41,449 bases of DNA from Desulfovibrionales bacterium (GTDB lineage Bacteria > Desulfobacterota > Desulfovibrionia > Desulfovibrionales > Desulfomicrobiaceae): NCBI GenBank assembly GCA_012727715.1, contig JAAYGN010000065.1:1-41449 (forward strand), written 5' to 3'. Below the pieces are notes generated by a model, which did no database searches, was not told the origin of the DNA, and saw only the letters and a program-made list of their open reading frames with translations. Positions 15,611 through 41,449 of this stretch are shown here, piece after piece; the first letter of the stretch is position 1; the number at the start of each line of letters is the position of its first letter. The position numbers and the translations under genes are program-made.

Positions 15611-16837
15611 TTAAATAACAAAGATTTTGTCATCTTCAATGAGCTTTTCATCAATGGGTAAGCGGCCTGTATAACGAGCATAAATGAGCGCTGTGGTGCG
15701 ATACACCAAATGTCCTAATTTTGACCAGGGCAGATAAGCAATCAGCATAAAAACACTGACCAAATGAACATAGTATGTCAAAAATGCTAAAGGAGCCATA
15801 CCGGACAGACGGAAAACTTCCGCACCAATTCCAGTTAAGGTTACCACCCAAATTACACCCAGCAAATACCAGTCATAATAGTTGGAACGATACTTTTTGT
15901 CGTCAAGATTCAAACGACGCCGTGTGAGTAGGGTCAAGCCAACTAACAATAATACTGCACCGATATTGGCTAAAATTTTGACTGGATGCCAGAGGGGCAT
16001 GGGAGTATGCACCAGTGGCGCGATAAAGGTTATAACCTTACCACCCCAATGGAATGCTGCCACTGTCCCCGTAACAATAAAGCAAGCCAAAAAGCCATAA
16101 AAAAGAATCTGGTGCCCTTTGACTCGTTCATTGTCCTCGGAGCTATCTACGCAATCATTAAAACGGGTATGCTGAAGAATATCATAGCGTACGGTATCAA
16201 TAATTGCTTGGAGTATGGATGGCTTTTTATAGCCAATAACAAAAGTTGTCGGCATGTTTGCTTTAAAGCCATCAATCATATTTTTGATTCCTAACCCAAA
16301 ACAAATAACCACAAATATTGCTGTCAGGCCATACAAGGGATCAATGGTAAAATCACCGGGAAAAAGATTATCATACACAATTCGGCCATCTTCTGCCAAT
16401 GGGAAGAAGGTGCCCTTAATGGCAGCACGAATCATCCAGATAATTGCCCAGATTGTTGCTGGGATACCTGCCAAGATAGGCAAATATTTGGGAGAGCTCA
16501 TCCAGGTGCCAATGGCAGTAGGCGGTACCAGCTTACGATAGGCCATGTTGCGCATGGCCGACATCAAATCAGCAGGTTTTGCCCCACGAGGACATTGCTC
16601 GGAACAATTTCCACAATTATGACACAACCAAATATCTATGTCGTTAGTTAACTTGTCTTGCAATCCCCACTGAGCCCAGATCATTTCCTTTCGAGGATAG
16701 GGATTTTCAGCAGGAGACATGGGGCATACGACCGAGCAGGTGGCGCACTGATAACACTTCTTGAGATCAACCCCACCTACCTCCTGCAGTTCTTTGACAA
16801 ACTGCAGATTTGGCTCAATTCTCGTAGTTTTGGACAT
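15611..16837 (-). CDS. qmoC: Quinone-interacting membrane-bound oxidoreductase subunit C
   Basis: The 408-residue protein fuses an HdrC-like iron-sulfur part with an HdrE/cytochrome-b-like membrane part. Two [4Fe-4S] motifs are visible: Cys28, 31, 34, 38 (CYQCATCSVVCP) and Cys72, 75, 78, 82 (CHNCGNCSEQCP). About six membrane segments follow from residue 118 to 385, with several His residues (HTRF, FHWGGK, YYVHLV) that could bind heme. It carries electrons between menaquinol in the membrane and QmoAB. AGGAGG lies just upstream, overlapping the qmoB stop region. Confidence 0.95.
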   Translation of the reverse strand: MSKTTRIEPNLQFVKELQEVGGVDLKKCYQCATCSVVCPMSPAENPYPRKEMIWAQWGLQDKLTNDIDIWLCHNCGNCSEQCPRGAKPADLMSAMRNMAYRKLVPPTAIGTWMSSPKYLPILAGIPATIWAIIWMIRAAIKGTFFPLAEDGRIVYDNLFPGDFTIDPLYGLTAIFVVICFGLGIKNMIDGFKANMPTTFVIGYKKPSILQAIIDTVRYDILQHTRFNDCVDSSEDNERVKGHQILFYGFLACFIVTGTVAAFHWGGKVITFIAPLVHTPMPLWHPVKILANIGAVLLLVGLTLLTRRRLNLDDKKYRSNYYDWYLLGVIWVVTLTGIGAEVFRLSGMAPLAFLTYYVHLVSVFMLIAYLPWSKLGHLVYRTTALIYARYTGRLPIDEKLIEDDKIFVI

Positions 16838-16848
16838 ACACGCTCCTC

Positions 16849-19146
16849 CTAGTATCCCTTGAACGGATTGGGACCGAGTTTGATTATTTCCTCTACAAAT
16901 TGGTCAATCATAGCAGGAAGCTCATTATATTCATCAATTGCCACCTGCATCTGCTTCACCCGTTCGGCTTCAATTCCAAGTTTGCCCAAAGTTTCAGCAA
17001 CATTATCCATGCGTCGATTACACAATTCCGAACCCTTGACAAAGTGGCACTGGTAGTCCTCTCCATACTTACAACCTAGGAGTAAGCAACCGTCTGCTCC
17101 CTTGGACATCGCATCAGCAATCCAGATGGTATTCACAGAACCCAAGCATCGGACCGGAATAATACGTACATAAGGGCTCCATTTCTTACCACGCAATGCC
17201 GCCATATCCAAAGCAGGATAGGCGTCATTTTCACAAGCCAGGATAAGCATTCGCGGTCCACCCACAGCCATATCATCAGGTACTTCCACTTCTTTGATCA
17301 TGGAACCGATCTGATCAACATTATAGTTGTCAAAGGAAATGACACGTTCTGGGCAGGCACCCATACAGGTACCGCAGCGACGACAACGAGAAGTATTGGG
17401 CATTGGATTGCCCTTTTCATCCTCATCCAAGGCACCAAAAGGACACTCCTCAGTGCAACGCTTACATTGTGTACACCGCATTAAATTAAACTTGGGATAC
17501 GACAAATCACCGGAACGAGGGTGTACGGCCATACCTCTGTTTGCAGACTCCAGGCACTGAATGGCTTTCAGAGCTGCACCAGCTGCGTCGGTCTCAGCTG
17601 TCGCCAAAGTCATGGGCTGGCGCACTGCACCAGCTGCATAAAATCCTGTCCGTCTGGTCTCATATGGAAAGCAGATAAAGTTGGAGTCTGCATATCCGCT
17701 AAAGCGATCCAGATCGGGCATGGCTGGCCCCTGTCGATAAGTGAGACGCAAAACAGGATCCAATGCTGTGGTGGGAACCATGCCAGTGGGTAGAACAAGC
17801 ATATCTACTTCGATTTCAACTCTGGAACCTAACAAGGTATCCTCTAGTACCACCACAATATCATCGTCGCCGCCGTCTCGAATTTCCTGAACAATACCCT
17901 TGGTCATCATAATACCAGGATCATTTTGTGCTGCTTTGTAATACAGCTCATTAATACCAGGTACCATCATGTGTTCATAGACAATAAGAGCTACACCATT
18001 ATGGAGAAACTCTCGAACATAATTAGCCTGCTTCAGAGCTGTCAGAGAAGTAAGCTCAGCACTATATTCCAAATGCCTATAGGTATCTTGTTTAATAAAA
18101 TTTGTTTTTGGCGTATCGTCTTCTTCCTTTTCCTTGTTTTCAGCAGCAGCCAAAGCAGCTTCCTTGGCTTCCTGTTCCTGCACTGCAAAAGGTGCCAACT
18201 TATCACCAAAACTCAGTAGAAACATAACTTTACTGGGTGGATTACCATCAGACTTGCGAACAATATCTCCGCTTTTGGCCATGGCTTCAAATTCGCGTGA
18301 TGTTACTACGTTTTTAAGCTTTCCATAACCAAAGGGGGACAGAGTTGATGTATTTTGTGGGGTCCAACCAGTAGCCAACACGACAGAACCAATGGCTATT
18401 TCTTGTTCTTCTTTACCTGTGCGTACAATCACTTGATATTGGCCAGGTGCTCCTGCAATACTGACTACTTCAGAACCAAGTAACACGCTGATGTTATCCG
18501 ATGCTTCAACATCAGCAATTTTTTTGTCCACACCAGTGGTGTGTGCTTTATCATATGGATGTTGCATAGGAATGGTCTTGTACATATCTGCAGCTGCACC
18601 ACCAAGAACATCCTTTTTCTCAACCAAGGTAACGTCATAGCCAATGGAAGCAACGTTAAGTGCTGCTGTTAGCCCTGCCCATCCACCGCCTATCACCAAA
18701 ACGTGACGTACAACTTCCCAAGGTTCTGTTTGCGGGATTTTGGATTTTTGCAGTTTGACGACACCCATATTGACATAGTCAGCAGCCATTTTATGCAACA
18801 ATTCTGGTGGTTGACCGGGCACTAATGCCTGGCCACTGGGGTCATCATAACACAAGACGCACAGCTCACGCAGGCTTACACGACTGACCGTAATAGCTGG
18901 TCCAAACTCATAAAAATCCCAATCCACACGTGGCGAAGTGCCACAAACACAAACTGAATCAATGGTACCGGCATCAATATCTGCCTGAATTAACGATCGT
19001 CCTTCCACGCTGGCCAGCTTGGGGTGTACCTTGACTACAGGGCAAAGATCACCCCACTTCTTCTGTACACCAGCAACCAATTGCTCAATATCAAGCATGC
19101 CGCCAAGGCTCGATTCGTCAAAATATACACCTATTTTGTCGGCCAT
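16849..19146 (-). CDS. qmoB: Quinone-interacting membrane-bound oxidoreductase subunit B
   Basis: This 765-residue flavoprotein is related to HdrA with an MvhD-like tail. The FAD-binding motif VIGGGWAGLTAAL lies near residue 151. Two ferredoxin-type clusters are in CTQCKRCTEECP and CRRCGTCMGACP (about residues 565-610), and the C-terminal MvhD-like domain contains CENDAYPALD, PVRCLGS and LLLGCKYGEDYQCH. A Lys/Glu-rich insert (about residues 330-345) is probably a surface loop. The protein is cytoplasmic and part of the electron path from quinol to APS reductase. It starts 3 bases after qmoA with GGGAGG in front. Confidence 0.95.
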   Translation of the reverse strand: MADKIGVYFDESSLGGMLDIEQLVAGVQKKWGDLCPVVKVHPKLASVEGRSLIQADIDAGTIDSVCVCGTSPRVDWDFYEFGPAITVSRVSLRELCVLCYDDPSGQALVPGQPPELLHKMAADYVNMGVVKLQKSKIPQTEPWEVVRHVLVIGGGWAGLTAALNVASIGYDVTLVEKKDVLGGAAADMYKTIPMQHPYDKAHTTGVDKKIADVEASDNISVLLGSEVVSIAGAPGQYQVIVRTGKEEQEIAIGSVVLATGWTPQNTSTLSPFGYGKLKNVVTSREFEAMAKSGDIVRKSDGNPPSKVMFLLSFGDKLAPFAVQEQEAKEAALAAAENKEKEEDDTPKTNFIKQDTYRHLEYSAELTSLTALKQANYVREFLHNGVALIVYEHMMVPGINELYYKAAQNDPGIMMTKGIVQEIRDGGDDDIVVVLEDTLLGSRVEIEVDMLVLPTGMVPTTALDPVLRLTYRQGPAMPDLDRFSGYADSNFICFPYETRRTGFYAAGAVRQPMTLATAETDAAGAALKAIQCLESANRGMAVHPRSGDLSYPKFNLMRCTQCKRCTEECPFGALDEDEKGNPMPNTSRCRRCGTCMGACPERVISFDNYNVDQIGSMIKEVEVPDDMAVGGPRMLILACENDAYPALDMAALRGKKWSPYVRIIPVRCLGSVNTIWIADAMSKGADGCLLLGCKYGEDYQCHFVKGSELCNRRMDNVAETLGKLGIEAERVKQMQVAIDEYNELPAMIDQFVEEIIKLGPNPFKGY

Positions 19147-19149
19147 GAC

Positions 19150-20391
19150 CTACCTCCCTCTCACAGTCTGAACTGCTTTCATCGCTGCTCCAGTACCAGA
19201 TTGAGCCGACTTCATCACGTCCAGAGGTTGTTTTGCACAGCCTGCGGCAAAAATACCTCGTTCTTCTCCACCTATAATAAAACCCTCAGCATCAACTGGG
19301 ACATCAAAAGGTAAAGAATTCTCTGCCAGGCTAGGCTGCATTCCTGTGGCCAATACCACAAGATCAAAGCGCTCAACTGATTTTGTGCCAGTCACGGCAT
19401 CCTCAACGGTTAGCCACACATCGTCTCCAGCTTTATCCTGTTCAACAGCAGCGACTTTACCTTTAACTGCGTGTACTTTTTCATCAGCCAGGATTTTTGC
19501 TGCAAAATTTTCATACAGCCCCGGTGTACGTAAATCGATATAAAAAATTGTAATATCAGCACCTGGATTTTGCTCTCGAACATATTGAGCCTGCTTTAAC
19601 GATGCCATACAGCAAATATAGGAACAATATCCTAAATGATTTTCATCGCGCGAACCAGCACACTGCACAAAAGCAACTTTCTTGGGCGCGCGACCGTCAG
19701 AAGGTCTAACTACCTTTCCTTGAGTTGGACCAAAGGCTGATGCAATACGTTCCATTTGCATATTGGTAATACAATTTTTTATTTCACCTGCGCCGAGATT
19801 GGTCAGTCGGGTTACATCATAAGGTTTCCAACCAGTGGCAATGACTATGGACCCAACATTTAAGTTAATGACACGTGCTTCTTCACTTAAATCAAGATAT
19901 TCGTTTTCTGCTACCAGTGCTAAATCAGCATCACTCAGACTTGCCTTATCAACCACATAACGTTGAGGAAAAGCAAAAGGAGCATCCATGTAAACTGCTT
20001 TACGTGTCGTGAGACCAAACTCAAAATCACTGGGAGTTTCAGAAGTCAAAGCAGAACAAAGCTCAGATAGATCAGGGCTGTTGGGAGCAGAGTGTCGGGG
20101 CTGTATTGTCACCGTCACATCATAATTGCCCGCAGATCCTTCCACCTTGCTCACTTCTGCTAAGGTAAAAAATTTAACTTTAGGATTATTTTTGATCCGC
20201 TGATACTGGATTTCCAAGCCACACGATGGTGGGCACAGTTTTGGGAAATACTTGTTCAGCTGCATTACGCGTCCACCCAGAAATGCTGTCTTCTCAATAA
20301 TGAAGACCTCATGGCCGAGCTCTGCGGCCTCTAGGGCGGCGGTGATTCCAGCGAACCCACCACCGATGACCAGTATGCTGTTGCTAGCCAT
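19150..20391 (-). CDS. qmoA: Quinone-interacting membrane-bound oxidoreductase subunit A
   Basis: The 413-residue protein is an HdrA-like flavoprotein. The dinucleotide fold starts at once with LVIGGGFAGITAALEAAELG, followed by the Cys motif KLCPPSCGLEIQY and the region CAGSRDENHLGYCSYICCMASLKQA. It lacks the ferredoxin-type clusters of methanogen HdrA. The frame is open to 20454, but the ATG at 20391 is chosen because GGGAGGA lies just upstream and the FAD motif begins 8 residues later. It is first in the qmoABCD unit, which is separated from aprA by a terminator, so qmo should have its own promoter. Confidence 0.95.
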   Translation of the reverse strand: MASNSILVIGGGFAGITAALEAAELGHEVFIIEKTAFLGGRVMQLNKYFPKLCPPSCGLEIQYQRIKNNPKVKFFTLAEVSKVEGSAGNYDVTVTIQPRHSAPNSPDLSELCSALTSETPSDFEFGLTTRKAVYMDAPFAFPQRYVVDKASLSDADLALVAENEYLDLSEEARVINLNVGSIVIATGWKPYDVTRLTNLGAGEIKNCITNMQMERIASAFGPTQGKVVRPSDGRAPKKVAFVQCAGSRDENHLGYCSYICCMASLKQAQYVREQNPGADITIFYIDLRTPGLYENFAAKILADEKVHAVKGKVAAVEQDKAGDDVWLTVEDAVTGTKSVERFDLVVLATGMQPSLAENSLPFDVPVDAEGFIIGGEERGIFAAGCAKQPLDVMKSAQSGTGAAMKAVQTVRGR

Positions 20392-20437
20392 TAAGATTCC
20401 TCCCAGAACGTTCACGTTGAAGGCCATAAAAAATGAA

Positions 20438-20499
20438 TAGAATGGCCCAAACATAATCTATAACAGCAAGAGGTTACAGATCATGTATAGACCATTCTA
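20438..20499. repeat. 8-base inverted repeat in the qmo upstream region
   Basis: TAGAATGG at 20438-20445 and CCATTCTA at 20492-20499 are perfectly inverted, 46 bases apart, in the 124-base stretch between the apr terminator and qmoA. I found no convincing -35/-10 pair and no Rex-like site here. The repeat might flank the qmo promoter, or be chance. Confidence 0.25.
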
Positions 20500-20515
20500 C
20501 TTCCCGATACAGAAA

Positions 20516-20544
20516 AGGGGCTGTGGATTGGACCCACAGCCCCT
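20516..20544 (-). terminator. Terminator of the aprBA operon
   Basis: A perfect 11-base-pair stem (AGGGGCTGTGG with CCACAGCCCCT) around a short loop is followed on the minus strand by a short T tract. It lies 12 bases after the aprA stop. Confidence 0.88.
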
Positions 20545-20555
20545 CGGCCCATAAA

Positions 20556-22544
20556 CTAGTCAGGGATGATCTGATAGTAATGTCTCTTGAAAATCTCAGT
20601 TTCACCAGTGGCCGGATTGAACTTGGAGTTAACAAAGCACTTCCACTTGGCATCATCCAGACCCATGAAGTCCGCACGATAGTAGAAACCGGGATAACGG
20701 CTCTCCTGACGGAACCGAATGTGCTGCATATGCAGACGAACGGTCCAAAGTCTATGATACTGTTCCCAGCAACGTAACAGCTCATGTAGGTCACGAGCAG
20801 CCAGTTTCTGGGAGTCTTCTTCCAACATATCGAGCAGGTGGAAACCTGTGTCGAGCAATTTCTCGGAAGTAGTATAAAGAGTAGATACACCACCACCATA
20901 CTCATCTGTGCACTTGATCAAGCGCATCATGAAGTTATTTGGTGAAATGAAGTTCGGGTTGATAACCGGATCAGTGGATGCACCCTTGAATTCTTCGTAA
21001 GTGTACCAAGGCTGATAGATCTCTTTTTTCAAATCTTCAGCAGAAGCATTCAAAGTAGGAGCGAAATCCTTGTGATCAACACAATAGCGCACCATTTGTT
21101 TACCAACAATACGACCTTCAGCATGGGATCCGGAAGAGAACTTATGTCCGGAAGCACCAACACCATCAGCACAGGTAAACAGACCGTTGACAGTAGTCAT
21201 ACGGTTGTAAACCTTACCATTAGCAGCTTTAACTTTATATTCTTCAGGAACCCAAGGCTCGTTCGGACCAGATACCCAGATACCGCAACAGCCGGAGTGA
21301 GAACCAAGGAGATACGGTTCAGTGGGCATAATCTCAGATCCAACTTCTTCAGGCTTGATATTCATGGCTGCCCACAAGTTAGCCTGACCTACGCACATAT
21401 CCAGGAAGTCTTCCCAAGCTTCAGATTCCAGATGTTTCTGTTCAGCCTTGGACAAGTTAGCAAAGGTGGTCTGCAGAGCAGTAGCAGTATCCATATAGAT
21501 GGGACCGCGGCCTTCGCGCATTTCACGAAGCATCATGTGGTTACGCAAGCAGGTAGGAATAACATGACCCTTGGCATATCCACGATCTTCGTATGGCTTC
21601 AACATCGCACGGTTGGTGACACAATAATCTTCGCCCTTGGCGTTGGTAGCTTTTGCTTTAAAAAGCAGAAACCATGCACCAACAGGTCCGTAACCATCTT
21701 TAAAACGGGCTGGGACGAAACGGTTTTCCATCATGGTCATTTCTGCGCCAACCTGAGCACACATGGTGTAGGTAGAGCCAGCGTTCCAAACAGGATACCA
21801 GGCACGACCGAGACCTTCACCTGTGGAGCGAGGACGATAAACGTTAACTGCGCCACCACAAGCTACGGACATGGCCTTAGCTTTAATGATATACACTTTG
21901 TTTTCACGAACAGAAAAACCAACTGCACCAGCAATCTGGTTAGGTACTTTGGCGTCCAAAAGGAGCTTCACGATGAACAGGCGTTCGATATAACGGTCTT
22001 CACCCAAAGCATTTTTAGCAGCTTCAGCTACGATCACCTTGTAAGACTCACCATTGATCATAATCTGCCAGCGACCGGAACGCACAGGGTCATCGCCTTT
22101 ACGCAGAGACAGGCCTTCTTTTTTTGCAGAAGCGCCATCCAGGTTTTTCCCATCTTTTTTAATCCAGCAAGGCAGACCCCACTCTTCAAAAAGATGCACG
22201 GAATCGTCAACGTGACGGCCCAGGTCAAAAATCAAATCTTCACGAACCAGACCCATGAGGTCTGTGCGGACCATGCGCACATAATCATCTGCTTCGTTTT
22301 CTTTACCAATATATGTATTAATAGCGGAAAGACCCTGAGCAACAGCACCACCACGGTCCAAAGCAGCTTTGTCCACTAAAAGCATTTTTACGCCCAGAGG
22401 ATCGCCCCAGCGAACGGCTTCTACTGCGGTACCACAATTACCCATGCCGCCACCGACCATCAACAGATCGGTTTCAAGCTCCACTACTTCCGGCTCACCC
22501 AAAGGCAGGCCTTTAATCACATCTTTAATAGGAATTTGAGCCAT
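20556..22544 (-). CDS. aprA: Adenylylsulfate reductase alpha subunit
   Basis: This 662-residue flavoprotein reduces APS to sulfite and AMP in the cytoplasm. Near the N-terminus is the FAD-binding motif MVGGGMGNCGTAVEA (about residues 30-44), then DRGGAVAQGLSAINTY. Middle and C-terminal segments (GSHSGCCGIWVSG, FSSGSHAEGRIVGKQMVRY, WTVRLHMQHIRFRQESRYPGFYYR) are typical of AprA. The length is normal. AGGAGG precedes the ATG, and aprB ends 37 bases upstream. It receives electrons from AprB and, ultimately, Qmo. Confidence 0.98.
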   Translation of the reverse strand: MAQIPIKDVIKGLPLGEPEVVELETDLLMVGGGMGNCGTAVEAVRWGDPLGVKMLLVDKAALDRGGAVAQGLSAINTYIGKENEADDYVRMVRTDLMGLVREDLIFDLGRHVDDSVHLFEEWGLPCWIKKDGKNLDGASAKKEGLSLRKGDDPVRSGRWQIMINGESYKVIVAEAAKNALGEDRYIERLFIVKLLLDAKVPNQIAGAVGFSVRENKVYIIKAKAMSVACGGAVNVYRPRSTGEGLGRAWYPVWNAGSTYTMCAQVGAEMTMMENRFVPARFKDGYGPVGAWFLLFKAKATNAKGEDYCVTNRAMLKPYEDRGYAKGHVIPTCLRNHMMLREMREGRGPIYMDTATALQTTFANLSKAEQKHLESEAWEDFLDMCVGQANLWAAMNIKPEEVGSEIMPTEPYLLGSHSGCCGIWVSGPNEPWVPEEYKVKAANGKVYNRMTTVNGLFTCADGVGASGHKFSSGSHAEGRIVGKQMVRYCVDHKDFAPTLNASAEDLKKEIYQPWYTYEEFKGASTDPVINPNFISPNNFMMRLIKCTDEYGGGVSTLYTTSEKLLDTGFHLLDMLEEDSQKLAARDLHELLRCWEQYHRLWTVRLHMQHIRFRQESRYPGFYYRADFMGLDDAKWKCFVNSKFNPATGETEIFKRHYYQIIPD

Positions 22545-22581
22545 ATGTTCCTCCTAAAATTTTCGTTTGCTCAAAGCAGGC

Positions 22582-23070
22582 TTACGCAACAGCCGACTTG
22601 TAGGTGATCTTCATATCCGCTTCAGCTATCTCAAACTTCTTGCCCAAGGCTTCTTTTGGAGCCGTCAGAGCTGTCTCAGTATAGAGCAATTCATTTTCAA
22701 GATCGCCAGGTTCGGGCTTGCCAGCAAAAGGATCAATGGAACCTTCTGGAGTTGTGCGTACCGGGAATTTAAAACGCTTTACCTCACCATTGCGGAACTG
22801 AACAGTCCACATGATATCTTCGGCACTACGCAGAGGAATACAAGTTCCGCCCATGGGGGCAAAGTCGGCATAGGGACGTGCAGTGATAGCACCTTGAGGA
22901 CAAATTTTGATGCAGGAATAGCATTCCCAGCAGGCTGCAGGCTCCTGGTTGTACGCCTTCATCTCCACAGGGTCGAGGATCATCAGGTCATTAGGACAGA
23001 TGTACATGCAGGCAGTCTTGTCACCGCCCTTGCATCCATCACATTTTGCTGGATCGACATAGGTTGGCAT
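22582..23070 (-). CDS. aprB: Adenylylsulfate reductase beta subunit
   Basis: The 162-residue subunit carries two [4Fe-4S] clusters, bound by CDGCKGGDKTACMYICP (with the long spacing typical of AprB) and CWECYSCIKICP. A C-terminal tail wraps the alpha subunit in known structures. It passes electrons to the FAD of AprA. GGAGG precedes the start. The promoter and a Rex-like site lie about 70-110 bases upstream. Confidence 0.98.
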   Translation of the reverse strand: MPTYVDPAKCDGCKGGDKTACMYICPNDLMILDPVEMKAYNQEPAACWECYSCIKICPQGAITARPYADFAPMGGTCIPLRSAEDIMWTVQFRNGEVKRFKFPVRTTPEGSIDPFAGKPEPGDLENELLYTETALTAPKEALGKKFEIAEADMKITYKSAVA

Positions 23071-23142
23071 AATTCCTCCAAATAAAAAGTTAGAATAACT
23101 TAACCGCTAGGCCAAAACAAAATCCACTTTGAAGCATATAGC

Positions 23143-23160
23143 TTGTGAATCTTTTATCGA
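23143..23160 (-). promoter_or_regulatory. Rex-like operator over the aprBA promoter
   Basis: On the plus strand the site reads TTGTGAATCTTTTATCGA. One half-site (TTGTGAA) is perfect for the Rex consensus TTGTKAA-N4-TTMACAA and the other is degenerate. It covers the proposed -10 element and start region of aprBA. Rex is an NADH/NAD-sensing repressor known to control sat in Desulfovibrio vulgaris. Confidence 0.5.
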
Positions 23161-23179
23161 AGACAACTTTGGTAGTCAA
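23151..23179 (-). promoter_or_regulatory. Sigma70-type promoter of aprBA
   Basis: On the minus strand, TTGACT, a 17-base spacer and TAAAAG form a good -35/-10 pair, placing the transcript start near 23144. The 5' leader of aprB mRNA would be about 75 bases. Confidence 0.55.
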
Positions 23180-23227
23180 GCTAATATAATTGAGACTACT
23201 TTGCAACTAGTTCTTAATAAATAGACT

Positions 23228-23251
23228 GCAGGGCAGAATTTTCTGCCCTGC
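23228..23251 (-). terminator. Terminator after sat
   Basis: A near-perfect GC-rich hairpin (GCAGGGCAGA with TCTGCCCTGC, four-base loop) starts 7 bases after the sat stop. On the minus strand it is followed by an A/T-rich stretch with a modest T content. It separates sat from aprBA. Confidence 0.75.
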
Positions 23252-23257
23252 GATAAA

Positions 23258-24526
23258 TTACATCTTGGTTGCAGCAGCGTGGCTCTGCATTTTGATTTCC
23301 ACCTTTTCGGTCAGGCCAGCATAGTATTCTCGAAGGATATCCAAAACTTCATCGCGGCCAAAATGGTCTGCAACAGGAGCACCTTCGGACAGAGCCTTGC
23401 GCAGCTTGGTTCCGGAAAGTACAACACGGTCTTCCTTACTATGTGGGCAGGTGCGCAAAGAAGCCATGCCGTCACACTTGTAGCAATAGAAAGTCCAGTC
23501 AATCTTCATGGGCTGAGTGATCAAATCCTTGCCAGCTCCCAGGTTTTTGGGAATACGATCAAAGATTTCCTGAGCTTCAAACAAGCCATAGAAGTCACCC
23601 ACACCAGCGTGGTCACGACCAATCAGCATATCGGAAACACCATAATTCTGACGGAAAGTGGCGTGGAGCAGACCCTCGCGAGGACCTGCATAGCGCATAT
23701 CCAAAGGATAGCCGCCCTGTACAACATTAGCCTTTACAAAGTACTTGTCGATGAGCGTATCAATACATTTAATGCGCACTTCAGCAGGAATATCGCCAGG
23801 CTTCAAGTTGCCAACCAGTGAGTGAATGAATACGCCATCACATACTTCCACAGCAATCTTGGCCAAAAACTCATGGGAACGGTGCATGGGGTTACGCAGC
23901 TGGAGAGCAGCAACTTTGCTCCATCCCTTTTCTTCAAAGGTCTTGCGAGCTTCAGCAGGAGACATGTAGCAACCTGGGAATCTTTCCCGATAATCGCCTT
24001 CAGATAAAACTTTGACCGGACCAGCAATATTGTATTTCTTCTGGGCCATTACCATTTGTACACCAGGATGATCCTTGGGGGCAATTTCCCAAAACTTGTC
24101 GCCGGCAGACTCTTCGCCCTGCCCCTTATAAACTTTTTCGCATTCCCATTTCTTGTCAGCATCGGTCATTTCGTAGACTTCAGCGACCTTCATGGTTGCC
24201 ATGAATACACCCTTTTTAGGATCAAACAGAGCAATCTCTTCGCCAACTGCAACGTTTTCATCAGTGTCCAATGTTACAGGCACAGGCCAAAAAGTACCGT
24301 CAGCCAAAGTGAAGTTTTCACACACAGACTTCCAATCAGCTTTGGACATAAATCCATTCAGTGGACTAAAACCACCAATGCCCATCATGATCAAGTCACC
24401 TTTGGCACGAGGGCTAATTTCAATTTTCTTTAAACCTTCAGCCTTTTTTTGCTCGGCAGCTAATTCAGCGCCCTCTAGAAGACAGCAAACCAGACCTTTT
24501 CCACCATGCGGGGGTACGAGAGCCAT
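23258..24526 (-). CDS. sat: Sulfate adenylyltransferase (ATP sulfurylase)
   Basis: The 422-residue enzyme activates sulfate with ATP to APS and pyrophosphate. Active-site motifs are [12 protein letters not shown] (QxRNP and HxxH), [12 protein letters not shown], and a zinc-type Cys/His cluster in [15 protein letters not shown]. It is the homo-oligomeric type used by sulfate reducers. Two ATGs are possible. The one at 24532 touches the AGGAGG ribosome binding site, while the one at 24526 has the normal six-base spacing and is chosen (protein start [11 protein letters not shown]). A Rex-like site lies between the likely promoter and the start. Confidence 0.97.
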
Positions 24527-24547
24527 AGTCATCCTCCTAAATATAGT

Positions 24548-29584: not shown

Positions 29585-31666
29585 ATGGCAATGAAAACAA
29601 AGTTTAGTGTATGCGGTATGTGCTCAGTGCGCTGCCCCATTCAGGTTGATGTGCAAGATAGCAAGGCTATCCGCATTGAAGGCAATCAATTTGCACTCAA
29701 AGGAGGCCTCTGTCCTCGTGGTGCAGCTGGCATTGCTTTGGAGCAAGATCCAGAAAAACCTCAAACACCCCTTATTCGTGTTGGAGCCCGGGGTGAGGGC
29801 AAATGGAAAGCTGTCTCTTGGGATGAAGCTTTTGATTATGTAGCCGACAAACTCAAAACTATCATGGCTGAGCATGGTCCCCGATCTGTGCTCTGGTCTG
29901 ACCGAGGCGGACCTTTTCCAGACTTACCCAAAGCCTTTATGCGTGGCCTTGGCTCGCCAAACTATTGCAACCACGACGTGGCCTGTGCCCGTAACGTGCA
30001 ACACGGAGCCATGTCCACCATTGGGTTGGGACGCAAGGGTGTGGCCTACGACCTGCGTAACGCCAAGCATATTATCCTCCAGACTCGTAATATCATGGAA
30101 GCTGTCAATGTTGCTGAAGTCAATGCCACCTTGGATGGTATGGCAGGTGGTGCCAAACTGACAGTCATTGATATCCGTGCCTCAGTCAGTGCCAGTAAAG
30201 CTGATAATTTTTTCATGATCCGACCAGGCACAGACTATGGTTTTAATTTGGCAGTCATCCATACCCTGATCAATGAAAATCTCTATAACAAAGAATATGT
30301 GGATCAATTTGTAGAAGGCTTTGAAGAACTCCAATCCTTTGTCCAACCCTATACAGCCGAGTGGGCAGCTGAAGAGTGTGGGGTCCCTGCTGAATCTATT
30401 CGTGATTTGGCCAGGCAATTGGCAGCAGCAGCGCCCAGTGTGATTTGGCATCCAGGCTGGATGGTCGCTCGCTATAGTAATTCCTTTCAGGTCTGTCGCA
30501 CAGCATATATTATCAATGCTCTCTTGGGCTCCATTGGCGCCAAGGGCGGGTTACCCTTTGTTAATTCTCCCAAGGACGTCGGACGTAAAGGGCTAAAAAA
30601 ACTCGTTGATCTCTTTCCCAAACCCGAAGAAAAACGAGCTGATGGCGTGGGCTGGAAGCACCCCCAATTTGATGCTGGCCCTGGGCTGGTCAACCAGGCG
30701 TATGATGCGATTGTTACTGGCGATCCATATCCCATTAGAGCCTATCTATGTTGGCGCCACGACCCCATTATGTCCATGCCTGATCCAGCAGCCTTGAAAA
30801 AGAAATGGGAAGGCTTAGATCTTTTAGTCAGTATTACTTTTTCCTGGTCTGATACAGCTTGGCATTCTGATGTGGTCTTACCTCTGTCCACCTATTTGGC
30901 CAGAGAAAGTATTATTGCCGGGAAATCCGGTCTCAAACCTCAATTTTTTGTCCGCAAAAGAGTGCAAGAACCTACCTTTGACTCCAAGGCTGATTGGGAA
31001 ATCATCAGTGGCTTGTCCAAGCGCCTCGGCTTGGACGCCCTGGTTTTTGATCGTATTGAAGACATCTGGAACTACCAACTTGAAGGCACAGGCGTAACCA
31101 TTGATGACTTTGATGCCAAAGGATTTGTGGAGCTGGCTGACAAGCCTTTGTACCGCCCCATAAGTGAGGCGAAGTTACCTACCCTGTCAGGCAAAATTGA
31201 AATGGTCAGTGGAAAATGGACTCAGGCTGGGCACAACACTTTACCTGAATACAAATCGCCACAGTCACCTCCAGCAGGACTTTTTCGCATCACTTTTGGA
31301 CGAGTGGCCATACATACCCAAGGACATACGGTAAATAACCCCCTTCTCTTTGAATTGATGCCTGAAAACATAGCCTGGATGCACACCAGTCGAGCAGAGG
31401 AGCTGGGTATTGTTAATGACGAACTCATAGAAATTGTTGCTGCTGACGGTAGTACCGGGCGTATCAAGGCCTTTGTCACTGACTGTATTCACCCTGAAGC
31501 ACTCTTTATGGTCCATGGATTTGGGCATAGGCTGCCAGTTGAATCAAGAGCCTTTGGTAAAGGTGTAGCTGACAATGAACTCATGCCCGGAGGATTGGAA
31601 AACTGGGATAAGGGCGGTGGGTGCATTTCCATGCAAGAACATTTTGTCAGCGTGCGTAAAATCTAG
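29585..31666 (+). CDS. Molybdopterin oxidoreductase catalytic subunit (PhsA/PsrA-like, cytoplasmic)
   Basis: This 693-residue protein belongs to the DMSO-reductase superfamily (bis-MGD cofactor). An N-terminal [4Fe-4S] site is formed by Cys10, 13, 17 and 43. The likely Mo/W ligand is Cys134 in HDVACARN, as in thiosulfate/polysulfide-type enzymes. The C-terminal cofactor-binding domain begins near residue 560 (FRITFGRVAIHTQGHT). There is no Tat or other signal peptide, so it should be cytoplasmic, unlike PhsA or PsrA. It forms a pair with the ferredoxin-like subunit 10 bases downstream. The substrate (thiosulfate, polysulfide, tetrathionate, other) cannot be told from sequence. An AGAGGG ribosome binding site precedes the start. 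Confidence 0.85.
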   Translation: MAMKTKFSVCGMCSVRCPIQVDVQDSKAIRIEGNQFALKGGLCPRGAAGIALEQDPEKPQTPLIRVGARGEGKWKAVSWDEAFDYVADKLKTIMAEHGPRSVLWSDRGGPFPDLPKAFMRGLGSPNYCNHDVACARNVQHGAMSTIGLGRKGVAYDLRNAKHIILQTRNIMEAVNVAEVNATLDGMAGGAKLTVIDIRASVSASKADNFFMIRPGTDYGFNLAVIHTLINENLYNKEYVDQFVEGFEELQSFVQPYTAEWAAEECGVPAESIRDLARQLAAAAPSVIWHPGWMVARYSNSFQVCRTAYIINALLGSIGAKGGLPFVNSPKDVGRKGLKKLVDLFPKPEEKRADGVGWKHPQFDAGPGLVNQAYDAIVTGDPYPIRAYLCWRHDPIMSMPDPAALKKKWEGLDLLVSITFSWSDTAWHSDVVLPLSTYLARESIIAGKSGLKPQFFVRKRVQEPTFDSKADWEIISGLSKRLGLDALVFDRIEDIWNYQLEGTGVTIDDFDAKGFVELADKPLYRPISEAKLPTLSGKIEMVSGKWTQAGHNTLPEYKSPQSPPAGLFRITFGRVAIHTQGHTVNNPLLFELMPENIAWMHTSRAEELGIVNDELIEIVAADGSTGRIKAFVTDCIHPEALFMVHGFGHRLPVESRAFGKGVADNELMPGGLENWDKGGGCISMQEHFVSVRKI

Positions 31667-36371: not shown

Positions 36372-37223
36372 TTAACGTCGGTTGGAAATAAAAACCTTGG
36401 TCCAAGCCAGGGTCAAAGCAATGGCAAACAGCCCAGCCACTACGCCAAGGGCCACGTCATACATGGGCGGAGCAGCCAAGGCCAGACGGATAAATAAGGT
36501 CGAAAGGGCATAGCCGGAATTGCGAAAAACTGCGTGAAAGGAAGGCCGAAAGCATTGAGAAATAAGCACCAATAAAATATCTGTAAAAATGAGCAAAGTG
36601 TAAAATACAGGGAAGAAATCAATATGGGGCAAGCCGGTGAATTGGTTGTACACATTGGTCAAACCCAAAATTACAAACACAGTTAAAATAACAAGGGCAA
36701 TACCTTTTTTAGCGGCCACAAAGCGAAACAAATCATGGGGTAAACCCATGTCCTGTTTTTTTACGGGCTGCACTCGATAATACATACCTAAAAGAGCAAA
36801 GACCACCAACGCCCCAAATCCATAGCCCAAAATATGCAAGACAGGGGTAATTTCCATCACAGTTATGGGCTCGGAAAAAGCAGACAACTCCTTGAACGCA
36901 TCGCGCAACAAAATCAGGGATAAAATTTCAAATTGTTTGCCCACGGATTTGGAAAAGGAACAGGGCAGGGTAAAGATGAGGCTGACCACTTCCAAGATCA
37001 AAACCAGGGAGAAAGCCAGGTTCACCGCATGAAAATGATTGACAGGGGTGTGTGCTGCCAACACATTGGGCAACAACCCCTGCCGATTCAGCTCAATAAG
37101 ACCAAGGCCCAGCAAAAAGACAAAAACCAAAACCAGGGCCAGACGGCGATGCAAACGTTCATGTTCCCAAAAATGGTGCAGGGGATCAAAAACATAGGTG
37201 ATATATTCAAAAAATCTGTCCAT
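36372..37223 (-). CDS. Polytopic membrane protein of unknown function
   Basis: This 283-residue protein has about six or seven membrane segments (near residues 18-37, 58-82, 119-145, 170-187, 198-220 and one or two more before the end). The N-terminus is a cytoplasmic-looking YITYVFDPLHHFWEHERLHRR. The third loop has an amphipathic stretch PCSFSKSVGKQFEILSLILLRD. I do not recognise the family. It follows the selW-like gene by 26 bases (11 if the GTG at 37238 is the start) and so probably ends the molybdenum-hydroxylase maturation operon. Roles in selenium, sulfur or molybdate movement, or electron transfer, are possible guesses only. Confidence 0.75.
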   Translation of the reverse strand: MDRFFEYITYVFDPLHHFWEHERLHRRLALVLVFVFLLGLGLIELNRQGLLPNVLAAHTPVNHFHAVNLAFSLVLILEVVSLIFTLPCSFSKSVGKQFEILSLILLRDAFKELSAFSEPITVMEITPVLHILGYGFGALVVFALLGMYYRVQPVKKQDMGLPHDLFRFVAAKKGIALVILTVFVILGLTNVYNQFTGLPHIDFFPVFYTLLIFTDILLVLISQCFRPSFHAVFRNSGYALSTLFIRLALAAPPMYDVALGVVAGLFAIALTLAWTKVFISNRR

Positions 37224-37249
37224 AAGTCCCGAATACACCCTTTAGCAAG

Positions 37250-37492
37250 TTATTCATCCTGGCTTTGCAAGCAGGCAACAATGGCCTCGACCACCCAATC
37301 GTGTGTCGGTAACCGCTTGCTCCACTGGGAGGAAGAAACAAGATGCTTCTCCAGCCAAATATCATATTGTCCCTGGCCACCTGGCTCCAAAACAACCGAC
37401 AGTTGACATTCTTCTTGTAAACGCTGCGCAAGACTTGCGGCCCGGAGCTCATAGCCCTTTCACCTGGCGCAATAAATAATACGAACCTGCAT
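37250..37492 (-). CDS. SelW/Rdx-type selenoprotein with in-frame UGA (Sec)
   Basis: This 80-residue gene is split by a UGA at 37460-37462 in normal ORF calling. Read with Sec at codon 11, it starts MQVRIIYCARU and goes on KGYELRAASLAQRLQEE, matching the Rdx (SelT/SelW/SelH) family: strand, Y-C-x-x-C/U redox motif, then helix with LRAA. The rest (VVLEPGGQGQYDIW, then a C-terminal helix) follows the SelW pattern of EPGxxGxF/Y and the length is right. A SECIS-like hairpin follows the UGA. The TAA stop is at 37250. It lies 15 bases after mocA and inside a cluster for selenium-dependent molybdenum hydroxylases. The ribosome binding site is weak, so coupling to mocA is likely. Predicted role: selenol-based redox protein in the cytoplasm. 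Confidence 0.85.
37427..37462 (-). promoter_or_regulatory. Bacterial SECIS-like element following the UGA codon
   Basis: On the mRNA, the UGA is followed after 24 bases by an apical loop AGUCU. The stem is CGCAA / UUGCG with GUC at the tip (13-base hairpin at 37427-37439). A G in the first two loop positions and a UGA-to-loop distance of roughly 16-37 bases are the known requirements for bacterial SECIS elements read by SelB. The loop resembles the GGUCU loop of E. coli fdhF. Confidence 0.7.
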
Positions 37493-37507
37493 TGGACAAA
37501 ACCGAAG

Positions 37508-38104
37508 TTAGTGTTTGCTGCCAACGGCCTCTACCAAGGCCAAGTAGTCATCCATGGTATCCACATCTTGAAAAAACCTGGGACTGTGCACTTCCACCTT
37601 GCAAATCTCCTGGCTGTAGCGCTGCAAAAGAAGGCGCGCGCCCATATCCCCCCGCAAATCCAAGGCTTCTTGCATCAACTTGCGCCCCAAAATAACCGGA
37701 TTACCGGGCTGTCCCTGGTACACAGGCATAACGCCTTGAGGAGCATTGATGCAAAAACAAGCGATAAGATCATTGATAAGTCTGGAACTAACATAAGGCT
37801 GATCACCCAACAAGAACATGACCCCATCCGCGTCCAGGCTCTGCTCAAGGCCTGCCTTCAAAGACGTGCTTTGACCCAAGGCATAATGATGATTGATGAC
37901 CACGGTCAACCCCGTGGTATCCAGAGCCGGCAAAATCAGCTCATGTCCATGACCCAAAACCAAAATTATGCTTTGCAACTCGGACTCACGCGCAGCATTG
38001 ATCACATGCTGCACCAGAGGTTTACCTTCCAAAGGTAAAAGCTGCTTGATCTGTCCCATACGTTGGGCCAGGCCGGCAGCCAGAATCACCCCGCAAACAA
38101 TCAT
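37508..38104 (-). CDS. mocA: MocA/MobA-like nucleotidyltransferase
   Basis: The 198-residue enzyme is of the MobA-like NTP transferase family. The nucleotide-binding loop LAAGLAQRMGQIKQLLPL is at the N-terminus, with FLLGDQPYVSS and PVYQGQPGNPVIL downstream. MocA adds CMP to molybdopterin to give the MCD cofactor used by molybdenum hydroxylases; the specificity here is inferred from the family and the neighbouring hydroxylase gene. The start at 38104 overlaps the yqeC stop (ATGA); the open frame upstream to 38167 lies inside yqeC. Confidence 0.88.
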   Translation of the reverse strand: MIVCGVILAAGLAQRMGQIKQLLPLEGKPLVQHVINAARESELQSIILVLGHGHELILPALDTTGLTVVINHHYALGQSTSLKAGLEQSLDADGVMFLLGDQPYVSSRLINDLIACFCINAPQGVMPVYQGQPGNPVILGRKLMQEALDLRGDMGARLLLQRYSQEICKVEVHSPRFFQDVDTMDDYLALVEAVGSKH

Positions 38105-38871
38105 GCCCCAACCTCCAGGACACTTGGATGCCCTGTAGCTGTCCCCAAAACAATGCGCTGTAGCCAAGATTTTTGACCCTGCACAAGGTGTACAATTTCT
38201 CGACCCTGGACCAGGGCCTGGGGATCATCTGCCTGGTTCAACCATAGCAATTTTTTGGCCTGAACAGGACTATTTTTAAAAAGACCCAGGGGATGATTGA
38301 CCAATTGGACTACAGACTGAGCACTGATCACTGCACCCAAGGCTAGACCAGTAAGCTGGGCATAAATCTCACTGTGAAAGACCCATGTTTTAGACAAAGG
38401 TTGTCCCACAGCCTTAAGACCCACCATCCCCAAAACATGGCTGCTCACTTGGGGAATCACAGGTTCATGAGCAGCTGGAGCTTTGAGGGGCAGGCCCCGT
38501 GCCCCGTCAGCTTCAACAAGAATCCAGTCAAAAATCTGTGCATGAATCAGTTCTTGAATCAATGCTGGGGATAAGCCCAATACCTTGGCACCAACCTGCT
38601 TCTCCCCCAAGACCAAGGGCTTGGGGTCACCAGAAAACTGAGAGCATCTCTCCAGCCATTGGGATTCACTGGCCCTGAGCATGAGCTGTCCCTGGTCCAT
38701 GGTGGGTAGGAAAATTTTTGTGGTTGTGGTACACAACACCCGTCGCCCCTGGCTGACCAATTCACGAGCCAGACGGTACATGGCCGAAGTCTTCCCCCCA
38801 GCGCCCACAATGGCCAAAACCCCCTGATCAGGCAGATCCAGGGCAGTAGCCATGGTCTGGGCCAGACTCAA
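38101..38871 (-). CDS. yqeC: YqeC, selenium-dependent molybdenum hydroxylase maturation protein
   Basis: This 256-residue protein has a P-loop-like motif VGAGGKTSAMYRLA at residues 22-35, then TTTTKIFLP and VEADGARGLPLKAPAAHEPVIP, which are typical of YqeC. YqeC and YqeB were linked by comparative genomics to a labile selenium cofactor in certain molybdenum hydroxylases and tend to co-occur with selD. The ATP-binding fold is visible; the reaction is not known. It overlaps yqeB (ATGA at 38868-38871) and mocA. Confidence 0.9.
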   Translation of the reverse strand: MSLAQTMATALDLPDQGVLAIVGAGGKTSAMYRLARELVSQGRRVLCTTTTKIFLPTMDQGQLMLRASESQWLERCSQFSGDPKPLVLGEKQVGAKVLGLSPALIQELIHAQIFDWILVEADGARGLPLKAPAAHEPVIPQVSSHVLGMVGLKAVGQPLSKTWVFHSEIYAQLTGLALGAVISAQSVVQLVNHPLGLFKNSPVQAKKLLWLNQADDPQALVQGREIVHLVQGQKSWLQRIVLGTATGHPSVLEVGA

Positions 38872-39677
38872 GAAGAAAACTCCATAATAACTTTGAGCAC
38901 AGCATTCCCCAGGGCACGGCCTTTGTCAGAAATAATATGTAAAAAACGAGTATCCCCACGTGGATCAATATCGCCCAATTTCAAACCACGCGGCACCACG
39001 CCATGGGGTCGAATTTGTCCGCGCAACAGCCCAGAGATTTCAGCCACAATGGCTGCGCCAGCCACATGGCCTAAAATTTGACCCTTGGTAACCATATCGC
39101 CAAGGGCACAGGCCCAGGTTAAGGGGCCATCTACCGGGGCGCGTAAAACCCGCTCCTTGGTAAATCCCCCAGTATCACCGGGAATTCCAGTATTGGGACG
39201 GGCCTCACCTGTGGTTATAATTTGGCCCAGATCCTGGCCGCGCTGGGTCTCCACCACCACATGCACATCCTGACCAGCCTTAAAACCTGGCCCCATACCA
39301 ATGACCAAAGGCGCTTCAGTCATGCTTGTGCCCAAATTACGCTTGGCAATAATGGCATCCACCACCACATGGGGAGTCAGAGTACCCAAAGAGGCCCAGG
39401 TCGGGTCCACCAGAATCGGAATCTGTCCCTGCTCCCAAAGCAAGGTGGCCTCGTGCACATTTGCCACCAGCTGGCCTGGCACTTGCTCCACCACACTGGT
39501 TCCGTCATACACAGCCTCGCAAAAGCTGATGGTCCGACGCACCGCCAGGGGACGCGCAGTTTCCAGGATCAGAATACGGCGCAAACCAGCCTGAAACAAG
39601 GTCCAGGCCACGGCTGACCCCATTTCTCCGCCACTTTTAATGGCCACCACCAAATTATTCAGGCTGCGTGTGCCCAT
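38868..39677 (-). CDS. yqeB: YqeB, selenium-dependent molybdenum hydroxylase maturation protein
   Basis: The 269-residue protein has a Rossmann-like start (VVAIKSGGEMGSAVAWTLFQAGLRRILILET) and the conserved run RRTISFCEAVYDG, VDPTW, DAIIAKRNLGT and APLVIGMGPGFKAGQDVHVVVET. This is the EF2563/YqeB family, associated with selenium-dependent molybdenum hydroxylases. Its biochemical role is not established. AGAGG lies upstream of the ATG. It follows the hydroxylase gene after a 55-base spacer that holds a perfect palindrome. Confidence 0.92.
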   Translation of the reverse strand: MGTRSLNNLVVAIKSGGEMGSAVAWTLFQAGLRRILILETARPLAVRRTISFCEAVYDGTSVVEQVPGQLVANVHEATLLWEQGQIPILVDPTWASLGTLTPHVVVDAIIAKRNLGTSMTEAPLVIGMGPGFKAGQDVHVVVETQRGQDLGQIITTGEARPNTGIPGDTGGFTKERVLRAPVDGPLTWACALGDMVTKGQILGHVAGAAIVAEISGLLRGQIRPHGVVPRGLKLGDIDPRGDTRFLHIISDKGRALGNAVLKVIMEFSS

Positions 39678-39732: not shown

Positions 39733-41449
39733 TCAGGAATGTAAGGCCTTGAAGACTCGCTCAGGAGTCATGGGAATGGATTTGAACCGATGTCCAGTAG
39801 CATTGGCCACGGCATTGGCCACTGCCGGGGCCGGACAAATAAGACTGCATTCACCAGCGCCCTTGGCCCCGTAAGGACCTGTGGGGTCGCTGGATTCCAC
39901 AATAATGGAGTGAATTTCAGGAATATCCTCTGCGGTGGGCAGCATATAATTATGCATGCTGGACTGGTATTGCCGTCCCTGTTCAGAATAAGTGATCTCT
40001 TCACTCAAGGCATAGCCGATCCCCTGTACCGCGCCCCCTTCGATCTGACCTTCCACAATCAAGGGGTTAATGGCCTGGCCCACATCATGAGCTGCCACCA
40101 TTTTGATGACCCGAGTCTGACCGGTACGGGTATCCACTTCCACTTCTGCAAAACAGGCATGCCAGGGCGGAGCATTATCCGGTACAATACGCCCAACGCC
40201 AATGAATTGCTTGTTACGCACATGGGCGTGGTACGCGAGCTCTTCAATGGTGACAGAATTGCCCTTGCCTTCTTGCACTTCGTCCAAATGACAAAGGCCA
40301 GAGCCTGAACATGCTCCCAAATGGCTGGCTTTAGGCGTAATGACCCCATTTTTGATCTCCAGATGTTCTGGAGCAATATTAAAAAAGCTGGCTGCATAAT
40401 CCAAAATCTGTTTACGGGCATCATCAGCAGCAGCTTTGACTGCTGTCCCTGCTGCGTAACAGGTGCGGCTGGCATGGCCGCCAATATCAAAGGGTGTGCT
40501 CTGGGTATCGCCATAGGTCAGACCCACGGTATCCATGTTCAGGCCCAAAGCTTCAGCCGCAATTTGCACCAGGCTGGTGCTGGTGCCGGTACCCATGTCC
40601 GGCACTCCTGAAGCTACCCGAGCTGAACCATCAGCCTCAATAGTCACGTAAGCATTGTCGTAATCCACGCAAAAAGGCCAGGCATTACTGACATGGGTAC
40701 CCACGGCCATGCCCAGGCCGCGCACCTTGGTTGCGCCTGGTTCATTGAGTTTGCCCAGACGATGCCAGCCAATACTTTCAGCGCCGCGGCGAATGCATTC
40801 TGCCAGTTCTGAAGTGCCGCAAGCATAGGGCAGACACCACGGATCACCAGCCTGCATGATATTTTTCAAACGCAGCTCCATGGGATCCATGCCCAGAGCT
40901 TGGGCCATCATATCCACAGCCTGTTCCATGGCCAGGTTGCCCTGGGGATTGCCAAAGCCGCGCATCGCCCCGCCACTGGTGCGGTTGGTGTACACACTAT
41001 GGCCATGATAACGCTGGTGCGGAATACGATAAATGGCCAGGGTCATGGCTCCGCACACTCCTGGACACTCCGCCCCGAAAGTACAGTAGGCACCGGTATT
41101 GAAGACACTCTTCATGTCCAGAGCCTGGAAGGTGCCGTCTTTTTTGGCGCCCAATTTGATGCTCACATAGGCTGCATGGCGTGTATCCGAGGCAATAAAA
41201 TCTTCCTTACGAGTATAAATCAATTTTACCGGGCGCTTGGCCATAAGGGCCAGGGCCATGGCAATGGGCTCGGCCTTGCCGCTGAGACCAATGCGAACCC
41301 CAAAACCTCCACCCACATAGGGTGGCGCTAAGACTCGAATTTTTCCAGCCGGAATATCAAAAATCTTGGCCAAAATCACGCGTGAAGGGTGAGGAGTCTG
41401 GGTCGTGGACCACACCGTGACATTCCCATTGCCTTCCACCTGGGCCACA
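39733..41449 (-). CDS. Molybdenum hydroxylase large subunit (xanthine dehydrogenase/aldehyde oxidase family), 5' truncated
   Basis: The frame is open to the right edge of the window, so the N-terminal part is missing; 571 residues are visible. Motifs of the molybdopterin-binding domain are PPYVGGGFGVR, GGAMRGFGNPQGNLAMEQ (the Mo-cofactor loop, normally RGxGxPE), and KGAGECSLICPAPAVANAVANATG with the catalytic Glu in GAGE. The family oxidises aldehydes, purines or N-heterocycles. Linkage to yqeB, yqeC and mocA suggests a selenium-dependent hydroxylase with MCD cofactor rather than a standard xanthine dehydrogenase. Two consecutive TGA codons end the gene. Confidence 0.9.
   Translation of the reverse strand, partial: VAQVEGNGNVTVWSTTQTPHPSRVILAKIFDIPAGKIRVLAPPYVGGGFGVRIGLSGKAEPIAMALALMAKRPVKLIYTRKEDFIASDTRHAAYVSIKLGAKKDGTFQALDMKSVFNTGAYCTFGAECPGVCGAMTLAIYRIPHQRYHGHSVYTNRTSGGAMRGFGNPQGNLAMEQAVDMMAQALGMDPMELRLKNIMQAGDPWCLPYACGTSELAECIRRGAESIGWHRLGKLNEPGATKVRGLGMAVGTHVSNAWPFCVDYDNAYVTIEADGSARVASGVPDMGTGTSTSLVQIAAEALGLNMDTVGLTYGDTQSTPFDIGGHASRTCYAAGTAVKAAADDARKQILDYAASFFNIAPEHLEIKNGVITPKASHLGACSGSGLCHLDEVQEGKGNSVTIEELAYHAHVRNKQFIGVGRIVPDNAPPWHACFAEVEVDTRTGQTRVIKMVAAHDVGQAINPLIVEGQIEGGAVQGIGYALSEEITYSEQGRQYQSSMHNYMLPTAEDIPEIHSIIVESSDPTGPYGAKGAGECSLICPAPAVANAVANATGHRFKSIPMTPERVFKALHS

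Follow-up and report, generated by a model that had tools for sequence, protein, structure and literature searches.

A selenoprotein W-like gene with a predicted selenocysteine codon beside selenium-dependent molybdenum cofactor genes

The window, by which we mean the whole stretch of 41,449 nucleotides that was analysed from a sulfate-reducing bacterium, carries on its minus strand a short selW-like gene between a mocA-type gene and the gene of a conserved membrane protein (Table 1). The ordinary ORF list of the window does not contain this gene, which the standard code cuts short at an in-frame UGA. The initial annotation had described a frame with a UGA and then open sequence up to a TAA, and direct reading bore this out: an ATG and nine codons precede the UGA, which is codon 11, and 69 sense codons follow it before the TAA. 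The membrane protein gene starts 26 nt after the selW stop, with an alternative start at 37238. By eye, no Shine-Dalgarno-like stretch was evident in the window sequence before the selW ATG, and since 15 nt separate the mocA stop from this ATG, it is possible that selW is translated in a coupled fashion with mocA. Scanning the window against Rfam at the gathering thresholds gave 0 matches.

Table 1. Features of the window discussed in the text, with their positions and the values on which they were assigned.
Feature	Position	Strand	Basis or remark
QmoC	within 15611-24532	minus	513.7 bits, over cut-off 300
AprA	within 15611-24532	minus	1094.6 bits, over cut-off 641.75
Sulfate adenylyltransferase	within 15611-24532	minus	459.4 bits, over cut-off 387
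Conserved membrane protein, 283 residues	36372-37223	minus	in 22/22 genomes of the taxonomic family
selW-like (Rdx family) selenoprotein gene, predicted	37250-37492	minus	80 residues, predicted selenocysteine at position 11
Predicted bacterial SECIS hairpin	37426-37440	minus	5 pairs, 37439-37435 with 37431-37427; loop GUC, 37434-37432
In-frame UGA, predicted selenocysteine codon of CARU (CxxU)	37460-37462	minus	CxxU by UGA in 17/17 genomes over the Rdx cut-off, window genome included
mocA-type molybdenum cofactor cytidylyltransferase	37508-38167	minus	TIGR03310, 190.5 bits, over cut-off 186.45
yqeC (selenium cofactor biosynthesis)	38101-38871	minus	TIGR03172, 188 against 73.05 bits; upstream of selW
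yqeB (selenium-dependent molybdenum cofactor biosynthesis)	38868-39677	minus	TIGR03309, 315.5 against 220 bits; upstream of selW

Upstream of selW, mocA, yqeC and yqeB (37508-39677) and a partial XdhA-like molybdenum hydroxylase (39733-41448, minus strand) follow one another consecutively, and we take this row as pointing to a selenium-dependent molybdenum cofactor trait next to selenocysteine (Sec) decoding in the same genome. Elsewhere in the window, the minus strand carries the sulfate-reduction genes of Table 1, together with two frames at 16849-20454 that match HdrA-type models below the cut-off and which we take to be, probably, QmoB and QmoA. A molybdopterin oxidoreductase of 693 residues is encoded on the plus strand (29585-31666); its best model is that of the thiosulfate reductase PhsA (498.4 bits, below the cut-off of 694).

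With cysteine substituted for the UGA codon, the translation scored 37.6 bits against the Pfam family Rdx (PF10262), well over the cut-off of 22.6, which upholds the family membership claimed in the initial annotation. TIGR02174, the second model against which the translation was to be checked, gave 28.2 bits in an NCBIfam scan of the same Cys-substituted sequence, below its cut-off of 34.2; given this, the SelW-like assignment rests on Pfam Rdx, the fold and the CxxU motif. A six-frame search for Rdx through stops, covering the whole assembly of 2.53 Mb, returned three matches at E≤1, among which selW (30.5 bits, E 9.9e-7, one TGA inside) was the only one over the cut-off, the other two (L002, L003) being dropped. 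As the sole Rdx match over the cut-off in the whole assembly, selW is more than a chance similarity.

The predicted structure points the same way. An AlphaFold model of the protein, with Cys in place of Sec, has a mean pLDDT of 88; its elements follow one another as strand, helix, strand, strand, strand, helix, and a further short helix (55-58) comes ahead of the last one. Foldseek searches with this model gave 21 matches at E≤0.001, which are chains of the PDB entries 2ojl, 2obk, 2p0g, 2fa8, 3dex and 2oka. All six were also found by a sequence profile built from 11 sequences (the window copy and 10 relatives), which matched eight distinct PDB sequences at E≤0.1, with 2oka as the best (3.2e-7); several of these matches bear SelW-related names, mouse SelW included. 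The modelled protein thus appears to adopt the thioredoxin-like fold of the SelW type.

The UGA occupies the known Sec site of the CxxU motif, here CARU, as had been proposed from its redox position. An Rdx gene over the cut-off is present in 17 of the 22 genomes of the taxonomic family, window genome included (one further locus, L039, scored below the Rdx cut-off and is excluded from the counts for the family and the order). All 17 encode CxxU by means of a UGA, since in 15 genomes the Rdx match spans one TGA, and in the other two, both of the genus g4, it begins just after the TGA and the residues ahead of it read CGLU and CSLU. Across the order, 17 of 297 drawn genomes have an Rdx match at E≤0.001, all of them with CxxU, and these are the same 17 genomes of the taxonomic family. 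Cys-containing orthologues, which the initial annotation had proposed to look for in relatives, were absent from these 297 genomes, and the frame decay at the UGA position that would have spoken against the gene was not seen in relatives, which keep both the UGA and the open frame. This conservation of the UGA and its flanks argues against the UGA being an ordinary stop, with the downstream similarity a leftover or an overlapping frame the true gene. Two other open frames do cover the place (37207-37524 on the minus strand and 36933-37406 on the plus strand), yet neither matches an NCBIfam family at 1e-10, and we consider an ordinary stop extremely unlikely. Read correctly, the window has here a true gene whose stop is recoded, invisible to an ORF list made with the standard code.

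The genome also has most of what Sec decoding would need. In the assembly (271 contigs, 91.87% complete), selA (620.5 bits) and selD (334.1 bits) scored far above their cut-offs, selD having an in-frame UGA of its own, and tRNA-Sec (selC) was found at 86.4 bits and was also called by ARAGORN as tRNA-SeC with the anticodon tca. Of the four genes selA, selB, selC and selD that the initial annotation had named, it is selB that is present in part: an N-terminal piece matches profile positions 1 to 257 (304.7 bits, above the cut-off), and its frame (L005, on contig G000:C216, near base 40) runs to about residue 263, where it meets a stop no more than 40 nt from the contig end. A domain search of the assembly did not find the SelB wing domain, and a search by contig end for the rest of selB gave no good second copy. 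We read the partial selB as an assembly break rather than a true disruption, which would be the alternative. In the taxonomic family, 20 of the 22 genomes have selA, and the two without it are 63% and 85% complete. The presence of tRNA-Sec, selA and selD, together with a codon placed where CxxU proteins are known to have Sec, leaves next to no room for the idea that the UGA is read through as a standard amino acid. General read-through would also sit badly with the stop codons further on: leaving g4 aside, 12 of 15 selW genes have another TGA as the first in-frame stop beyond the Sec codon, near the end of the Rdx match, where it presumably acts as a true stop. The UGA of selW is almost certainly read as selenocysteine.

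A SECIS-like hairpin at the right distance was part of the initial claim. Such a hairpin is present and conserved in relatives, but as a stand-alone argument it is weak. It lies about 20 nt after the UGA in the window, and the outermost pair of the relatives' stem (37440 with 37426) is C.C in the window copy. Five stretches of the window with all or part of the hairpin (59, 41, 39, 24 and 23 nt) fold no better than shuffles, with z values from +0.8 to +1.7, against -2.4 and -1.1 in two relatives (L026 and L030), and for the window hairpin the folding energy comes to -5.1 kcal/mol, versus -7.5 for one relative. Of the 1508 TGAs of the window, moreover, 523 are followed within range by a 5-bp stem whose loop has an early G. 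Because of this frequency and of its unremarkable fold energy, the hairpin alone is no evidence. We aligned it in 15 genes (the window copy and 14 relatives; 14 distinct rows), leaving out the two g4 genes (L037 and L038) here and in the synonymous test below because of their differing hairpin; by eye, these genes seem to bear a different hairpin at the same place. The six-pair stem around the loop GUC is paired in 83 of 84 cells (98.8%), the sole unpaired cell being the window's outermost pair, and in two genes (L023 and L026) it lies one codon nearer the UGA. In L026 an A-U pair has become C-G by changes in both partners, and in three rows G-U takes the place of A-U. This covariation amounts to one event and is weak, since values like these are attained by 27 of 500 shuffles.

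The synonymous sites tell much more. The hairpin codons, 18 to 22, are nearly frozen: GCC in 15/15 genes, GCA in 14/15, AGT in all 12 serines (12/12), CTT in 14/15 and GCG in 15/15. Their mean synonymous entropy is 0.14 bits, versus 1.42 in the 14 other conserved columns of four- or sixfold degenerate codons (two genes, L033 and L034, are cut short at the 5' end by the start rule, so that columns before the UGA come from 13 of the 15 genes). All five hairpin columns are lower than every other column, a ranking with a chance of 1 in 11628 by exact count, for columns that share one tree. The neighbouring membrane protein gene served as a control. Of 15 genes tried, located by motif, 14 were used, and their genomes are partly but not wholly those of the selW set. 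Nine of the 129 such columns of this gene are as low, the mean over all of these columns is 1.02, and its lowest run of five columns sums to 1.32 versus 0.70 for the hairpin. A hairpin with a G at the start of its loop thus follows the UGA and seems to be under selection, as indicated by its pairing and its frozen synonymous sites. The latter are the strongest evidence for the predicted SECIS. More generally, frozen synonymous sites offer a clean comparative test for bacterial SECIS elements where folding energy fails.

The window copy is a divergent one, 30-45% identical to the SelW of 10 relatives. Several features would fit a selenoprotein gene that once worked and is now decaying as selection relaxes, its hairpin weakened and its Sec decoding perhaps lost. 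It has the lowest Rdx score in its genus (30.5 bits as above, versus 37.5-54.8 for the others with the gene). At three positions (43, 55 and 58, by eye) it differs from residues otherwise invariant, the outer hairpin pair is missing, no flavodoxin gene neighbours it (see below), selB is incomplete in the assembly, and selW is missing from two further genomes of this genus, both of them 99% complete. Against such decay, the 69 codons after the UGA are still open, of the 17 columns without variation among the other 10 rows of the alignment, 14 are retained by a count by eye, the hairpin codons are identical to the consensus, and selA, selD and tRNA-Sec score far above their cut-offs. We therefore regard decay as very improbable.

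In relatives, selW stands in a different neighbourhood. It adjoins a flavodoxin-like gene and the membrane protein gene in 12 of the 13 other genomes of the genus that have selW, and the order selW, flavodoxin-like gene, membrane protein gene was seen in all 10 of these 12 that were closely inspected; in the exception (G009) the membrane protein gene lies on a different contig. The flavodoxin-like protein of one relative (L050) matches Flavodoxin_2 with 146.7 bits. Among the loci L040-L050, where a Flavodoxin_2-type gene separates selW from the membrane protein gene, two (L041 and L047) are followed by a protein starting with a stretch like MPALFVGHGNPMNAI. In the window, no flavodoxin gene separates selW from the membrane protein gene, and none was found in the window's genome by a search made without a positive control on an assembly that is, as noted, somewhat incomplete. 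A search at 1e-8 of 14 stretches from relatives gave no match to mocA, yqeC or yqeB. The membrane protein is 79-84% identical to that of the window in nine aligned genomes of the genus, and it matches no Pfam family over the cut-off (best 12.1 against 25) and no PDB entry in a profile search at E≤1 (0 matches); the AlphaFold model obtained for it is a poor one (pLDDT 47.8). Both genomes of the genus that lack selW still have the membrane protein, and the flanks that were fetched show no selW and no flavodoxin gene. A strict partnership between SelW and the membrane protein is unsupported, given that the latter is also present where selW is missing.

To our knowledge, the function of the SelW-like family in bacteria is unclear, and the gene order of the relatives, a mild new point, provides candidates for its partners. 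One could imagine that SelW, the flavodoxin-like NAD(P)H oxidoreductase and the membrane protein form a dedicated redox module, in which the flavin enzyme would reduce the selenoprotein or be served by it at the membrane, and that the selW of the window, now behind yqeB, yqeC and mocA, may serve the maturation of a selenium-dependent molybdenum hydroxylase. We offer this scenario as a speculation that is unlikely to hold.

We consider it highly probable that the gene encodes an 80-residue Rdx/SelW-like selenoprotein of thioredoxin fold. SelB would bind the hairpin some 20 nt past the UGA and deliver Sec-tRNA-Sec, so that codon 11 would be decoded as selenocysteine within C-A-R-U; insertion by SelB and a hairpin is described as the standard bacterial mechanism (PMC9312934). 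The Cys/Sec pair, placed after the first strand, would then alternate between a selenenylsulfide and the reduced form, and the protein would probably act as a thiol oxidoreductase, a redox role suggested by its family and fold.

The SelW-like selenoprotein of the window is a further member of a family already known to use Sec. SelW-like selenoproteins with CxxU have long been described in bacteria, and Desulfotalea psychrophila and Geobacter sulfurreducens are listed for the Deltaproteobacteria (PMC1794560); 427 such selenoproteins and 56 Cys homologs are reported in the samples of PMC2398784, and bacterial ones are also tabulated in PMC9312934. One paper lists D. orale with six selenoprotein genes, and another names Desulfomicrobium solely in citing work on [NiFeSe] hydrogenase; neither SelW nor Rdx appears by name in the passages of these two papers. 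Compared with the bacterial SelW-like proteins (PF10262), the window copy has the same CxxU motif, length, fold and succession of a UGA and a hairpin, whereas its sequence is divergent and it is preceded by mocA, yqeC and yqeB, and the family is seen here in Desulfomicrobium and its kin. With Campylobacter SelW it shares a length of about 80 residues and a UGA read as Sec, which is predicted here from the gene itself and which in C. jejuni is backed by ribosome profiling and proteomics, where the full-length protein was seen past the UGA (PMC11955535); by the Campylobacter SelTWH model (NF041051, 36.7 bits, below the equivalog cut-off of 88), however, the window copy is related rather than an equivalog. 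The modelled Rdx fold is also that of mouse selenoprotein W (2npb; TMq 0.72, E 1.4e-3 for the model, and E 2.5e-5 for the profile), but in eukaryotes the SECIS is placed in the 3' UTR (PMC2398784), whereas the predicted hairpin of the window lies inside the frame.
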